From Microvirga ossetica (GTDB lineage: Bacteria > Pseudomonadota > Alphaproteobacteria > Rhizobiales > Beijerinckiaceae): a stretch of 64,000 nt of DNA. The DNA lies in the NCBI RefSeq assembly GCF_002741015.1, contig NZ_CP016617.1, positions 1,116,001 to 1,180,000 of the forward strand, written 5' to 3'. Under the pieces are notes generated by a model that saw only the letters and a program-made list of their open reading frames with translations, made no database searches and was not told the origin of the DNA. Of the stretch, positions 34,485 through 56,231 are shown piece after piece. The translations under genes and the position numbers were made by a program. Numbering within the stretch: position 1 is the first letter of the stretch; every line of letters starts with the position of its first letter.

Positions 34485-34736
34485 ATGCCAGACAGCCAGT
34501 CGAAGGCTCCTCGTGGCAGTCTTGACGCTTCCGTCCAAGAACACCTCGGCGTGCAGCTGCGTGCTCTCTACGGCGATCCCTCTGAGAGCAAGCTTCCCTA
34601 TGAGTTGCGCCTGCTCGCCCGACGGTGGCACAGACCATCCGTGCGCACACTGCGCACACCGAGCCGGTCGACCAAGCCTTCCTCGATGGGGTCATGGGCA
34701 ATCTTGTCCCGCTCCGCGCCTATGCCATCTCGCTGA
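34485..34736 (+). CDS. NepR-like anti-sigma segment, split from its sigma factor
   Basis: The first 47 codons match NepR, the anti-sigma factor of the alphaproteobacterial general stress response: DASVQEHLGVQLRALYGDP, then SKLPYELRLLARR. After that the frame is out of phase with a sigma-factor gene that starts at 34625 in the -1 frame. In the paralogue at 51214 the same two parts are in one continuous protein. Here a single lost base near 34624, or ribosomal slippage, separates them, so either a free NepR-like peptide of about 83 residues with an unrelated tail is made, or the gene is damaged. Confidence 0.7.
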   Translation: MPDSQSKAPRGSLDASVQEHLGVQLRALYGDPSESKLPYELRLLARRWHRPSVRTLRTPSRSTKPSSMGSWAILSRSAPMPSR

Positions 34737-35185
34737 CCAAGGCCTTCGATCGCGCTGAGGATCTGGTTCAGGACACAGTTCTGCGCGCGCTCCGCCGGCG
34801 AGAGAGCTTCGAGAAGGGTACGAACCAGAAGGCCTGGCTCTTCACGATCCTGCGCAACACCTGCTTCTCGGAACGTCGTAGGGCCAGGCGCGAGATTGAG
34901 GATGCTGACGGTCGCCTTGCCAGTGAGATGGCAACGGGTGCAGACCAGGAGAGCAGACTTGTTCTCCAGGAACTGGAAGCCGCGCTAGCCAGGTTGCCCC
35001 AGGAGCAACGAGAGGCTCTTCTGCTCGTCGGAATGGAGGGTCTCTCATATGAAGAAACGGCAGCAGCGTTGGGCTGTGCTGTCGGCACGGTGAAGTGCCG
35101 GGTCAACCGTGCCAGGAACAGGCTGGCCGAAATACTCCGACTGGATGCAGACGACCTTGGCGGCAAGCGGACAGGACAGCGCTAG
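34625..35185 (+). CDS. EcfG-type RNA polymerase sigma factor
   Basis: A 186-residue ECF sigma factor with the region-2 motif AEDLVQDTVLRAL and AWLFTILRNTCFS, and region 4 with QEQREALLLVGMEGLSYEE followed by GCAVGTVKCRVNRAR. The length and sequence match EcfG, the general-stress sigma of alphaproteobacteria. A GTG at 34625 is the first plausible start, but the paralogue at 51214 shows that the ancestral protein began with the NepR-like segment just upstream. It could be made by reinitiation, making this sigma free of its tethered inhibitor. Confidence 0.85.
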   Translation: MAQTIRAHTAHTEPVDQAFLDGVMGNLVPLRAYAISLTKAFDRAEDLVQDTVLRALRRRESFEKGTNQKAWLFTILRNTCFSERRRARREIEDADGRLASEMATGADQESRLVLQELEAALARLPQEQREALLLVGMEGLSYEETAAALGCAVGTVKCRVNRARNRLAEILRLDADDLGGKRTGQR

Positions 35186-47327: not shown

Positions 47328-48680
47328 TCAACATCGTGCGATCCGCCTTGGTCGGAGACCATCAATCAGGTCCAGGATGCGCCGGAACAGCTCGCGTGGG
47401 ACCGCCACTTCGGCCATTTGGAACACCGTGTAGCGGGCGTGAGTAATGACCTTCGCGCCGATCTTCACCACCTTGTCGCGCAGAGAGGTCAGCGACCACC
47501 GCTCAATCTCCTCTGGAAGCACCAGAGTGCGAAAGATGTTGGCCAGGTTGTAGGCCAGAGCATGAAGCTGGAGCCGGACCGCGTTGGCCGTCATCGAACG
47601 GCATGACAGGCGCGTCCACCGGACTGCGTTCTTACCTTCTTTGATCCACTGCTCGGCCGTGCCGCGTTGATTGTAGAAGGCCACAACGCGCTCAGGCGGG
47701 CGGCTCAAGTTTGTGACCAAAAAGCCGACACGCGGATAGAGTTCGCCTGGGTGCCACTCGACCTTGGCCACGACCCGGCGTAATTGGCTCCAGGTCTGGG
47801 CTTGGTAGCGGAAGCTGGCGTAAAAGCGCCGGACTTCGTGCGGTGGACGCCCCACCGGGCGCGTGAGCAGGTGAGCAATCCTGCGCTGGAGAACAGCGTT
47901 GGCAGGCAGCCGGATGGCATAGCCATAGCCCTCCGCTTCCAGGAACTCGTAGACCTCAGGCGAGGCGAACGCTGCATCAGCTCGGAAGTAGCGCCGCTTC
48001 ATCATGCTGCGGTAGCGGGCGACCACTGGCTCTAGCACTTCGCGCCAGCCCTCGGCGGAGTGGACGTTGCCGGGCCGCAGGGCACATCGCTCCAGGTCAC
48101 CGAACTGGTTGAACACGAACAGCAGATGGTAGCAGGTGCAGCCGAAGTGGCCGTTGTAGGCGCTCCCTTCCTGCTCGCCATAAGTGGGGCTGACGCTGGA
48201 GTCCATGTCGAGCACGATCCCGTTCACAGGGCGGCGCGCGTGCACAGCATCGATCCAGCGCCCGGACAAGTCGGTCAGCGCGGACAGGTTCGCCACTTGC
48301 ACCAGCACCTCGGTCTCGAACCGACCCATCTGGCTGGCGGAAGCTGCATTCTGCGTAACGGCCCGGCCACCTACCACCCAGCGCATGGCAGGATCACGGC
48401 CAAGGCGCTCGGCATCGTTCACGTCCTCGTATCCGGCCAGCCGCCCGAATACGGACTGGCGAAGCTGTGCGATCAGGGTGTGGCGGCTGTTCTGGCCCGT
48501 CCTGGGGTCGGCGAGAACCTCTCCAGCGAGGTCCGTCAGGCCGAGGGCATCATCGAGGTCTCGAAAGGGGAGCAGCCCAGCGTCGGATGTCACCTTCGAA
48601 CCGTGGAACTCCAGCTTCAGACGGGGATCAAAGGCGACCCGGAGAGCGGCACCGTCTGCTTCACCCGCTGTATCGTCCAT
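47328..48680 (-). CDS. IS1380-family transposase
   Basis: A 450-residue intact DDE transposase. Catalytic regions are IVLDMDSSVSPTYGEQEG, YFRADAAFASPEVYEFLE and QRGTAEQWIKEGKNAVRWTR with the Glu. The N-terminus (RVAFDPRLKLEFHGSKVTSD) and RLPANAVLQRRIAHLL are also typical of the IS1380 group. It is on the minus strand. I could not place convincing terminal inverted repeats, so the element boundaries remain unknown. It is one of several transposases that frame the surrounding accessory genes. Confidence 0.85.
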   Translation of the reverse strand: MDDTAGEADGAALRVAFDPRLKLEFHGSKVTSDAGLLPFRDLDDALGLTDLAGEVLADPRTGQNSRHTLIAQLRQSVFGRLAGYEDVNDAERLGRDPAMRWVVGGRAVTQNAASASQMGRFETEVLVQVANLSALTDLSGRWIDAVHARRPVNGIVLDMDSSVSPTYGEQEGSAYNGHFGCTCYHLLFVFNQFGDLERCALRPGNVHSAEGWREVLEPVVARYRSMMKRRYFRADAAFASPEVYEFLEAEGYGYAIRLPANAVLQRRIAHLLTRPVGRPPHEVRRFYASFRYQAQTWSQLRRVVAKVEWHPGELYPRVGFLVTNLSRPPERVVAFYNQRGTAEQWIKEGKNAVRWTRLSCRSMTANAVRLQLHALAYNLANIFRTLVLPEEIERWSLTSLRDKVVKIGAKVITHARYTVFQMAEVAVPRELFRRILDLIDGLRPRRIARC

Positions 48681-51213: not shown

Positions 51214-51960
51214 TTACGTCTCCGCAGAATGGAACCTGATGATGCCGTCCTCATCAGCGAGCCTCATCAGTTCAGCCAGACAGTTCCGGGCCCGGTTGAC
51301 CCGGCTCTTGACGGTGCCGACCGCACATCCGAGAGCTTGGGCCGCTTCCTCATAGGACAGCCCGTCCGCACCCACGAGCAGGATCGCCTCACGCTGTCCC
51401 TCAGGCAGCTTGCCGAGGGCTGCCTCAAGTTTATGCATCATGATTCTGTCCTCTTGGTCCGGCTGGGCGATCATCGTGGCGGCATAGGATCCATCCCCAT
51501 CCTCGACTTCGCGCCGTGACTTGCGGTGTTCCGAACAGAATTGGTTGCGCAGGATGGTGAAGAGCCAGGCCTGGAGGTTCGTGCCGGCCTCAAACTGTGG
51601 CTGCTTGCTGATGGCCCTCAGTACTGTCTCCTGCACGAGGTCTTCAGCCTGATCGGCATCCCGCGTGAGTGAGATTGCGAACGCCCTGAGCGAGGTCACG
51701 CTCGCTAGAATTCCATCGGCGAACGCTTGGTCGATCGGCTCCGTGTGCGCACGGATCACTTCAGTCAATCGGTTGAGGAGCCGGGTCAGGCGGTACGGAA
51801 GCTTGCCCTCGGCCGGGTTGCCATACCAAGCCCGAAGTTGCTGGCCGAGATGGGCTTGAATGCTGCTGTCCAGGCCAACAGAGCTCGACCGGCTCACGGG
51901 ATGCTGGAGAGAGGTCCCGTCATGTCGTATATCAGCCGTATGGTTCGACAGTGTCACCAT
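51214..51960 (-). CDS. NepR-EcfG fusion: anti-sigma segment joined to a general-stress sigma factor
   Basis: A 248-residue protein whose start follows AGGAGACC. Residues about 31-66 match NepR: DSSIQAHLGQQLRAWYGNPA then EGKLPYRLTRLLNRL. Residues about 80-240 are a complete EcfG-type sigma factor with AEDLVQETVLRAI, AWLFTILRNQFCSEHRKSRR and the region-4 helix-turn-helix YEEAAQALGCAVGTVKSRV. NepR normally is a separate protein that traps EcfG until phosphorylated PhyR removes it. Here inhibitor and target would be one polypeptide, with only about ten residues between. No PhyR gene is in the window. The locus at 34485 is a split paralogue. Confidence 0.85.
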   Translation of the reverse strand: MVTLSNHTADIRHDGTSLQHPVSRSSSVGLDSSIQAHLGQQLRAWYGNPAEGKLPYRLTRLLNRLTEVIRAHTEPIDQAFADGILASVTSLRAFAISLTRDADQAEDLVQETVLRAISKQPQFEAGTNLQAWLFTILRNQFCSEHRKSRREVEDGDGSYAATMIAQPDQEDRIMMHKLEAALGKLPEGQREAILLVGADGLSYEEAAQALGCAVGTVKSRVNRARNCLAELMRLADEDGIIRFHSAET

Positions 51961-52176
51961 GGTTGGTCTCCTGTAAAACCGACCTCTCGGACCATGTGGT
52001 GGCCCGTCCTGAATCTGAGTCAGAGGCCGCCGCGGGCGCGCCGTGAAAGATCTGCACGCAATAGTGCCCGTGCTCGCCGGGGCAGCCTGTGAGCTGTGGT
52101 CTTCACGAACTTGATGTCGCCAAGTCTGCGCGGTGTCAGCCAAGCTGCATCGGTTCTGCCGACGACAACAGGTACG

Positions 52177-52362
52177 TCAGCGAGGCTTGGTGGCGTCGCG
52201 CACCGTGTCCTTAATGCCGCCGACAGCATTCTGCGCCCGGCCTGCCGTCTTCTCGGCAGCCCCTTCGGCCTGGGTCTTGCTGTCGCCTGTGATCTTGCCA
52301 ATGGCTTCCTTGACAGAGCCCTTGGTCTGCTTAGCACTACCCGCAATCCGATCCTTGTCCAT
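52177..52362 (-). CDS. CsbD-family stress protein
   Basis: 61 residues starting MDKDRIAGSAKQTKGSVKEA, then IGKITGDSKTQAEGAAEKTA and GRAQNAVGGIKDTVRDATK, the full CsbD pattern of a small, helical, charged protein. CsbD-like proteins are induced by the general stress response in many bacteria. It lies just upstream of the NepR-EcfG fusion, in the same orientation. The start follows AGAGGCG. Confidence 0.85.
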   Translation of the reverse strand: MDKDRIAGSAKQTKGSVKEAIGKITGDSKTQAEGAAEKTAGRAQNAVGGIKDTVRDATKPR

Positions 52363-52463
52363 GATCGCCTCTGGCTTAGGATGATATGCACGTGACAACC
52401 AGTACGATGACCCTGTTATCACGACTGCTAACCCACTCAAATCATTAAAGTTCATCTATTTTT

Positions 52464-54272: not shown

Positions 54273-54818
54273 TCAGGGTCTATTTCTGTCGAAGGCCGGA
54301 GCCGCCTTGAGCTGATCCACGGGGATCGTCACAATGATCTTGCCGGGCGTGAGAACGCGGCTGATCTGCATCTCGCTTCTCGTCTTCTGTCCTTCGGCTG
54401 TGCTCGCAGGCAATCCCTCACTTTGGATTGTTCCGGTCGTTGCCGTCATTCCAACAGGGTCGATCTCAACCGCGTGGACCGGAACCGCAACTGCCCGGCT
54501 GCCAATGCCTGGAGTGCCGCTCACCTTGACGATATAGGCGGCAACCTTGCCGTCATGGTCCAGCACAACGTCCTCGATTTCACCGATGGTCTTGTTGCCG
54601 GTTCCAACGGCATTCAGGCCAATGACATCAGTGAGGCGCAGAACGCCCTGGCTCCCTTCCTGAGTGATGAACCGACTGTCCGCGGGTCGATCATCCTTTG
54701 AACCGGTGGGGGGCTGCGCATTGCCTGCGAGAGGAGCTGGAGGCTGCCCCTGAGCAATGGCTATGGAGGCCAGCAGAGTGGAGGAGAGCAGGCCACTGAC
54801 AAGCAACTTTGTTTTCAT
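54273..54818 (-). CDS. Secreted PRC-barrel protein (3)
   Basis: 181 residues with a Sec signal peptide (LLVSGLLSSTLLASIAIAQG). A PRC-barrel core lies in the middle (GTGNKTIGEIEDVVLDHDGK, VAAYIVKVSGTPGIGSRAVA) and a Thr/Gly-rich tail ends VTIPVDQLKAAPAF. It is an envelope protein of unknown role, distinct from the two PRC-barrel proteins at 26625 and 32132, which have no signal peptide. The start has a GGAGATC. In Methylobacteriaceae such proteins often accompany stress-response genes. Confidence 0.78.
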   Translation of the reverse strand: MKTKLLVSGLLSSTLLASIAIAQGQPPAPLAGNAQPPTGSKDDRPADSRFITQEGSQGVLRLTDVIGLNAVGTGNKTIGEIEDVVLDHDGKVAAYIVKVSGTPGIGSRAVAVPVHAVEIDPVGMTATTGTIQSEGLPASTAEGQKTRSEMQISRVLTPGKIIVTIPVDQLKAAPAFDRNRP

Positions 54819-55088
54819 GGACGATCTCCTTCATGGACGATCTTCCGACGAGCATGTCCGGCTAACGCAGCGGCAGTCGCTTGGTTCTGCTGGGGACTGG
54901 GCTGATCAACCGTAGGCAATCCAGGCTCGTATGAGCCTCGCCCTTACGCGCTTGATCAAGTCTGGAACCGAACATCTAGTCAGCACCGGGTCAAAGTGTA
55001 ACGTAAGCGGATCGAATAAAGGCCCGCTTTGCGCGTAACTGCGGAGCTTGGGATAAGGTCAGCCCAGTGCCAAAAGCGGTCGTTCGCC

Positions 55089-56231
55089 TTAGCTCACCAG
55101 TGGAGCGTCGACTGAGCATACGACGCCTGTATCGGAAAACTCAATCCGCACCTCGCCCGCAAGTTCTTGAGCCAGGCTGCGCTCAATGAGCCGCGTGCCG
55201 AAGCCCCGGCGAACGGGCCGCTGGACGGGGGGCCCTTCCACCTCCTCCCACATCAGATGCAGGCGCTGTGGAGCCTCCGTGCCATCCAGTGCCCAGTGTA
55301 CCCGGATCTGTCCAGTTCCGTTGGAAAGGGCCCCGTATTTCACGGCATTTGTCACCAGTTCCTGGAGCGCCATTGCAAGCGGCAGGGCCATGCGCGGCGG
55401 CACCTGTACGCTCGGGCCCTGCACATGGATCCGGTTTTCGCCGCGGCTGCGGTACGGCTCGACAGCTTGTGCGACAATGTCGTGAAGCGCCACATGCGCC
55501 CAGCTTCGGTCGGTCAGAACATTGTGAACCTGCGACAGCGCGATGAGCCGGCTCTCGATGGCATCCGAGGCATGGTCCAATGAGGGTGCGTTCCGCAGTG
55601 TCTGTGAGGCGATGGACTGCACCGTCGTCAGCGTGTTTTTCACCCGGTGATTGAGCTCGCCGATTAGAAGATCTTTTTCCCTTACGGCCGCTCGCAGCTC
55701 ATCCACGACCCGCAGGCGCTCGATAGCAGCCCCGAGAAGATTAGCGTAGCTACGGAGGAACTCGATGTCCGATTGCGTGAAGATCCGGGGCCTGCGGCTG
55801 TCCACCTGAAGGACACCAAAGGGTGGACGCCCCTTGCTGCTTAGCACCAGCACATTCACGAACGCCTTGACCCCATGCTCCTTCATGAAGTCGTGGTACT
55901 CGAAGCGATCCTCCTCAGCGATGTTCGCCGAGATGACCGCCCCCTCCTTGAGGGTCAGCCCCTCCGGTGAGTTCTCGGCCGCCGTGACACTTACCTCGCC
56001 GATGATTCCTGATCTCCATCCGACGCCCGCACGGACCGTGAAGGTACGACCGTCAGGCAGGAGTTCCATAAGCTTGGCAAGGTCGGTTTCGAGCGCCCGG
56101 CCGATGAGCTCGCAGGCCCTATTCAGGATGTCATCGATGGCCTCGGTCTTGAGCGCGAAGTCCCCAAACTCTGCCAAGACCCGCTGCTGCTCTAGCAACT
56201 CCTCTTGGTCGGCGTCGTTTCGGTGGGTCAT
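55089..56231 (-). CDS. GAF-domain HWE histidine kinase
   Basis: 380 residues without membrane helices. An N-terminal GAF domain (ILNRACELIGRALETDLAKL, GVKAFVNVLVLSSKGRPPFG) is followed by the HWE/HisKA_2 kinase core: phospho-acceptor His in ELNHRVKNTLTTVQSIASQT, N box ELVTNAVKYGALS, and the diagnostic HLMWEEVEGPPV with Trp and Glu, then FGTRLIERSL. HWE kinases feed the PhyR-NepR-EcfG stress pathway in alphaproteobacteria, so this kinase near the NepR-EcfG fusion is a good candidate for its upstream sensor. No partner receiver gene is adjacent. Confidence 0.86.
   Translation of the reverse strand: MTHRNDADQEELLEQQRVLAEFGDFALKTEAIDDILNRACELIGRALETDLAKLMELLPDGRTFTVRAGVGWRSGIIGEVSVTAAENSPEGLTLKEGAVISANIAEEDRFEYHDFMKEHGVKAFVNVLVLSSKGRPPFGVLQVDSRRPRIFTQSDIEFLRSYANLLGAAIERLRVVDELRAAVREKDLLIGELNHRVKNTLTTVQSIASQTLRNAPSLDHASDAIESRLIALSQVHNVLTDRSWAHVALHDIVAQAVEPYRSRGENRIHVQGPSVQVPPRMALPLAMALQELVTNAVKYGALSNGTGQIRVHWALDGTEAPQRLHLMWEEVEGPPVQRPVRRGFGTRLIERSLAQELAGEVRIEFSDTGVVCSVDAPLVS

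Follow-up and report, generated by a model that had tools for sequence, protein, structure and literature searches.

EcfG sigma factors of M. extorquens carry a NepR-like N-terminal extension of about 55 residues (Francez-Charlot et al. 2016, PMC4814048). The accessible sections of that paper describe the extension as absent outside the Methylobacteriaceae, suggest an ancient nepR-ecfG fusion, and leave the role of the extension open. According to the same sections, in vitro binding of NepR by EcfG1 requires removal of its extension, and in two-hybrid assays of each EcfG with and without the extension, NepR was bound solely by truncated EcfG1 (strongly) and truncated EcfG5 (weakly); for the remaining four of the six, truncation did not lead to NepR binding in this assay. 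In vivo pull-downs indicated that NepR interaction is possible for both EcfG1 isoforms. EcfG2 has substitutions at several presumed NepR-contact residues and is described as apparently constitutively active, and two free NepR paralogues interact with PhyR and with none of the tested EcfGs; an anti-anti-anti-sigma role has been proposed for these paralogues (all PMC4814048, same sections).

Here, we describe a fused gene of this kind in 64,000 nucleotides of Microvirga ossetica DNA (the window; C2:1116001-1180000), which belong to a contig of 1,343,367 bases (C2) in a 9.63-Mb genome of six contigs. A previous reading made from the letters of this DNA (the sequence-only reading) knew of no described NepR-EcfG fusion. 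What is accessible of PMC4814048 reports the fusion for M. extorquens and the Methylobacteriaceae, to which Microvirga belongs in the NCBI taxonomy, so that it had already been described at the family level. In the literature searched, PMC4814048 was the only paper found to name EcfG, NepR, and Methylobacteriaceae together, and no paper was found that names both NepR and Microvirga.

The fused gene and its NepR-like segment

The fused gene (51214..51960, minus strand; open reading frame, Pfam, and sequence matches) runs from an ATG at 51960 to a stop codon ending at 51214 and encodes a sigma factor of 248 amino acids, P0001; the plus strand of the same interval is interrupted by stops. Upstream of it, a putative ribosome-binding site region (51961..51975, minus strand), read from the sequence, places AGGAG 7 bases 5' of the ATG. 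The protein consists of a NepR-like segment (residues 34 to 66; 51763..51861), the end of the second NepR-like helix together with a linker to sigma region 2 (residues 67 to 79; 51724..51762, from dN/dS and AlphaFold2), and an EcfG-type sigma domain with regions 2 and 4 (residues 80 to 236; 51253..51723), all on the minus strand. The sigma domain is delimited by Pfam, PDB sequence match, and Foldseek. Sigma70_r2 matched residues 91 to 150 with 49.4 bits and Sigma70_r4_2 matched residues 177 to 228 with 63 bits, both above the Pfam cut-offs, and the protein falls in the EcfG (ECF15) class. Its top PDB sequence match was 5uxx_A (159 bits), the sigma chain of the Bartonella quintana EcfG:NepR co-crystal. 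A Microvirga aerilata protein is a named near relative (83%). It had been considered that the real start might lie downstream of the NepR segment; this is unlikely because 19 of the 22 best relatives (P0001 included, of 120 listed) have 248 residues and because the segment is under constraint, as judged from dN/dS.

The assignment of the N-terminal segment to NepR rests on Pfam, a profile of free NepRs, and AlphaFold2. A profile search, which the sequence-only reading had proposed, did find NepR similarity, weak for P0001 alone and clear across its relatives. The Pfam NepR profile (PF18557) matched residues 35 to 65 of P0001 on profile positions 1 to 31 of 35 with 14.1 bits (E value of 0.037), and since this score is below the gathering cut-off of 25.7 bits, we treat the match of P0001 by itself as a lead. 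A second profile was built from free NepRs encoded next to unfused ecfG genes, both in this genome and elsewhere. P0001 scored 20.0 bits against it, and the N termini of 115 of the 117 relatives scored were above all 2340 shuffled controls, which reached at most 7.7 bits, with P0073 and P0092 below that maximum; 120 relatives were listed, and those left out were P0100, a fragment without the segment, and P0045 and P0105, which both carry it. In addition, the Pfam NepR profile was matched at E values of ≤0.01 in 35 of 103 aligned fusion relatives. L38 and L42 are invariant in the 102 aligned rows, and H37, G39, Y46, P55, and L61 are nearly so. Free NepRs have in common with these proteins the pattern I/L-G-x-x-L-R/K-x-x-Y/F plus a P, the spacing from Y to P being mostly equal, and the segment may be described as a putative two-helix NepR unit with the consensus LGxxLRxxY ... 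P ... L at conserved spacing. The AlphaFold2 model of P0001 has two helices that correspond in position to the two of NepR, at residues 32 to 46 and 56 to 71, with the sigma fold starting from residue 78; in L088, a g33 member of 234 residues, the predicted helices are at residues 13 to 30 and 37 to 53. A NepR-like segment is fused to a full EcfG sigma factor, and this fusion is conserved; the in-frame NepR-EcfG fusion within one protein of 248 residues that the sequence-only reading had claimed is real, as judged from Pfam, the free-NepR profile, the predicted helices, and dN/dS.

Purifying selection acts on the NepR-like segment. In the genus's most widespread form (L039 of this genome against eight look-alikes, whose orthology is assumed), the dN/dS of the segment was 0.039 and that of the sigma regions was 0.03 to 0.04, and in the paralogous pair L040 and L041 of this genome the values were 0.22 and 0.25 to 0.27, respectively. 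In the window subfamily, dN/dS was higher for residues 34 to 66 (0.23) than for the sigma regions (0.11 to 0.13; P0001 against seven relatives), and the segment also evolves faster in the g33 forms (0.34 versus 0.03 to 0.04; L088 against seven others). From these values we conclude that residues 34 to 66 are translated and under constraint, which in two of the four sets is looser than that on the sigma regions. Against a strict need for it, L012 and L015 each have a second copy just behind the first, in which the NepR segment is decayed and the sigma frame is open. In L011, too, a second fused-type gene lies directly behind the relative of the window type.

Genomic setting, distribution, and origin of the fusion

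Five fused copies without stops are found in the genome, namely, the window gene and those at C1:5395342, C3:419184, C1:5454480, and C4:611982. The window also contains a frameshifted second copy (34485..35185, plus strand), whose NepR part, from 34485, and sigma part, open from a GTG at 34625, lie in different frames; its position within the fused Microvirga clade in the trees suggests a formerly fused gene that has fallen apart. Two broken fused copies, each extending over two frames, were observed at C2:488025-488593 and C3:662269-662783.

No PhyR is encoded in the window, in agreement with the sequence-only reading; phyR is located on contig C1 (C1:1097371), where it is divergent from overlapping nepR and ecfG genes in a single locus of the same genome. 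The PhyR_sigma-like cut-off was exceeded at three places in the genome, and one clear PhyR remains. The candidate at C2:1150985 was rejected since it coincides with the sigma part of the frameshifted copy in the window, and the candidate at C1:2886317 was rejected since a receiver domain was not seen by eye in its open reading frame, which presumably resembles ECF41-type proteins. NepR is more numerous, with 13 of the 29 matches at E values of ≤10 in the genome lying above the Pfam cut-off. Two NepR-like genes on different contigs (L005, C2:239858; L006, C5:271788) have the same translated sequence over the stretch read.

Upstream of the fused gene and on the same strand are genes for a CsbD-like stress protein (52177..52362, with the likely ATG at 52362 and the longest open reading frame from 52455), a PAS-LuxR regulator, a PRC-barrel protein (54273..54818), and a GAF-HWE histidine kinase (55089..56231). 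The CsbD and PRC-barrel genes were assigned by open reading frame and Pfam, and the kinase by Pfam and by its sequence HRVKN, which matches the HRXXN motif named in PMC8103513. The stress setting suggested from the letters alone is therefore borne out by the nearby HRVKN kinase and by the CsbD and PRC-barrel genes alongside in the same orientation. An EcfG-type promoter (GAAC-N16/17-[CG]GTT) was looked for before the fused gene, and none was found there. GAAC-N16-[CG]GTT occurs on the minus strand at 52430-52453, 67 bases before the CsbD start codon, and at 54864-54887, 45 bases before the PRC-barrel start codon; these motifs make the two genes possible EcfG targets, with a motif count in the window that is near chance (7 versus a mean of 4.85 and a range of 0 to 11 in 60 simulated sequences). 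A transposase gene (Pfam DDE_Tnp_1_4; 47328-48680, minus strand) lies on the downstream side of the fused gene, at a distance of about 2.5 kb.

Fused homologues, for which the sequence-only reading had called, were found in Microvirga, g33, and g60, and relatives are widespread within the genus. Among the matches listed, 33 of the 37 same-genus genomes (this one included) have a stop-free match starting at or before query residue 35, and G001, G005, G012, and G029 have no fused match. At E values of ≤1e-60, a limit that would miss more diverged fusions, 27 of the 248 genomes of the family have matches, representing 3 of 43 genera (g1, g33, and g60); the fused match is without a stop in 26 of these genomes, and in G095 a TAG lies between the two parts. 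The search of 1393 plasmid records listed 30 matches, 13 of which begin at query residue 37 or earlier and the other 17 at residue 77 or later; among these matches, the 13 early-starting ones come from Microvirga, Methylobacterium, and Methylorubrum extorquens AM1. When 397 genomes were searched at the level of the order, at least 29 matches outside the family began no later than model position 16 and contained exactly one stop, which in the row read in translation (L152, from G512) sits between the nepR part and the ecfG part. In many relatives, nepR and ecfG thus already share a reading frame that is interrupted by a single stop, and its loss would be a one-step route to fusion. A match without a stop in G541, from another family of the order (L153, G541:C101), was rejected as an additional fusion, contamination or transfer being likelier than a new event; it is similar to L119, of the g33 type, and lies on a 6.5-kb contig of a genome that is 85% complete.

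The fusion of the window gene is shared with the majority of the fused forms of g33, a sister genus that is probably Methylobacterium. In a sigma-domain tree of 76 rows, all 41 fused-type rows fall on one branch (94/93); they are the frameshifted copy of the window, 20 fused Microvirga rows, and 20 rows of the g33 type, of which 19 come from g33 itself and one (L139) from AM1. In a tree of 61 hand-picked rows, from which L119, L120, L127, and L139 were left out, all 17 such rows, including 5 of the g33 type, are on one branch (100/97). When 10 long rows were removed from the 76, 32 of 36 such rows stayed together (98/97), with 12 of the 16 g33-type rows inside, and L119, L120, L127, and L139 joined unfused g33 EcfGs (98/96). 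The placement of these four thus depends on the rows used, being in the main fused clade with 76 rows and beside the unfused g33 EcfGs with 66; L139, the sole named M. extorquens AM1 sequence, is inside the main clade in the former and outside in the latter. The AU test does not reject one clade for all 36 main fused rows (p-AU of 0.469, 66 rows).

Additional fused proteins raise the question of a second origin. The g60 fusion L091 (G132:C129:42622-43248) has seven close database relatives, P0121 to P0127, with 83 to 93% identity. In the 61-row tree, P0121 to P0125 and P0127 group with L091 (100/97) inside unfused EcfGs (97/93), and P0126, a g60-type fusion judging by its sequence, has its sigma domain elsewhere among the unfused EcfGs. 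P0134 and P0220, which have a precomputed Pfam NepR match and a canonical-looking NepR segment, also sit among unfused EcfGs and are possibly young fusions. Trees set the g60 fusion among unfused EcfGs, yet AU tests do not reject a single clade of main and g60 fusions in three trees (P values of 0.238, 0.368, and 0.303), and a second fusion in g60 is therefore just suggested. It is only slightly short of an even bet that nepR was fused onto ecfG more than once: in an old event in Microvirga plus g33, in g60 (L091, P0121 to P0125, and P0127), probably in P0134 and P0220, and perhaps in L119, L120, L127, and L139. If so, the repetition would make the tethered NepR a selected, working cis regulator and no relic.

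Possible role of the tethered segment

P0001 is a Microvirga member of the Methylobacteriaceae EcfG (ECF15) proteins with a NepR-like N terminus, an old fusion shared with most fused forms of g33, and the chances are roughly even that its extension acts as a cis lid. The NepR-like helices would cover the sigma factor's own NepR-binding surface; the lid would compete with the free NepRs of the cell, lowering or tuning sigma activity, and would open when RNA polymerase or phosphorylated PhyR outcompetes it. We infer the cis lid, its strength, and its opening by PhyR from homologues and from conserved positions. In the homologues, according to the accessible sections of PMC4814048, the extension is published as going with loss of free-NepR binding, and because EcfG1 and EcfG5 bind NepR only when truncated there, a cis lid appears by analogy to be the likeliest role. 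It also counts for the lid that the segment is conserved at the same positions as free NepR, an inhibitor that binds EcfG. The lid cannot be absolute, as both EcfG1 isoforms can interact with NepR in the pull-downs of the same sections, and the apparent constitutive activity of EcfG2 described there would fit a sigma factor that no longer holds its lid.

Several observations count against the lid, namely, the failure of four of the six truncated EcfGs to bind NepR, the sub-cut-off Pfam score of the P0001 segment, its faster evolution in the window subfamily and in g33, and the decayed copies of L012 and L015. The shared-fusion part of the reading has against it the 4 of 16 g33-type rows, L139 included, that leave the main clade in the 66-row tree. 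Packing in cis gains nothing from the AlphaFold2 models, whose domain arrangement is of low confidence (pTM values of 0.41 for P0001 and 0.36 for L088) and mismatches the 5uxx sigma chain. The structural alignment gave 47% identity between the sigma domain and 5uxx_A. The sigma2/sigma4 arrangement of the two models differs from that of the NepR-bound sigma factor with Foldseek RMSD values of 13.2 and 21.0 Å. VIA-align gave an RMSD of 10.7 over 146 residues, with rows spanning mainly residues 70 to 239 and barely covering the NepR part; both the Foldseek and the VIA-align matches fall on the sigma part of the models.

The same evidence bears on a stricter form of autoinhibition, in which the tethered NepR would hold the sigma factor off by default, as the sequence-only reading had suggested, until phosphorylated PhyR opens it, giving a one-protein sigma/anti-sigma pair. 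The NepR consensus positions kept in the relatives of P0001, the phyR/nepR-ecfG locus in the same genome, and the HRXXN kinase close to the fused gene are in line with such a switch. We nevertheless consider it unlikely, in view of the apparent constitutive activity of M. extorquens EcfG2 in the accessible sections of PMC4814048, which, depending on the extension of EcfG2 itself, may speak against the switch, and of the AlphaFold2 models, which lack a confident closed form and have an arrangement unlike that of the EcfG:NepR complex.

Alternatively, the segment might act in trans by binding PhyR or other EcfGs, so that the fusion would couple a sigma factor to a sink for PhyR. With 13 NepR matches over the Pfam cut-off and one clear PhyR in the genome, the NepRs may plausibly compete for PhyR, and the two free M. 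extorquens NepR paralogues, which bind PhyR but no EcfG tested in the accessible sections of PMC4814048, provide a parallel; in the P0001 model, however, helix 2 ends about seven residues before the sigma fold, which would make contact in cis easy, and action in trans seems improbable to us. Least of all do we expect the extension to be vestigial, a leftover of an old fusion without a regulatory role: the NepR score of P0001 under the Pfam cut-off, the faster evolution of the segment relative to the sigma regions in the window subfamily and g33, its decay in the second copies of L012 and L015 and in P0092, and the open sigma frame that the frameshifted window copy retains without the NepR part would all fit, but the segment is as constrained as the sigma regions in the genus's most widespread form (dN/dS of 0.039), its NepR positions are near-invariant across 102 rows, and further fused proteins look separate in origin.

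That constraint, the fused match in 33 of the 37 same-genus genomes (among the matches listed), and the hints of repeated fusion argue that the extension has a role. As the fusion itself was already on record, what is still of interest is that the segment is under constraint and may have been fused more than once. With fused and unfused EcfGs side by side in the genus and one clear PhyR in this genome, the question of a cis lid is directly testable here.

Comparison with described sigma/anti-sigma systems

P0001 resembles the EcfGs of M. extorquens AM1, as far as the accessible sections of PMC4814048 describe them, in having a NepR-like segment followed by EcfG, in the similar length of the extension, and in belonging to the same NCBI family. 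It differs in sequence, L139 from the AM1 megaplasmid being 45% identical to P0001. The phyR loci differ as well: this genome has an ecfG gene there, whereas, according to the same sections, none of AM1's six ecfG genes is at that place.

Both parts of the canonical NepR and EcfG pair (5uxx) are recognizable in P0001. Unlike that pair, P0001 is one polypeptide, and helix 2, which in NepR ends the protein, is predicted to continue into a short linker. A further difference is seen directly after helix 1 in the rows read, where Y-G-[DN]-P occurs (in 111 of the 120 listed P0001 relatives), whereas free NepRs continue at that point with, for instance, Y-D-D-V-V.

IutY/ECF243 and ECF36 likewise unite sigma and anti-sigma factor in one chain, according to the accessible part of PMC8999054. 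The fused part of IutY is membrane bound and is opened by proteolysis, and that of ECF36 has three to four transmembrane helices, whereas P0001 has a small segment with two predicted helices.
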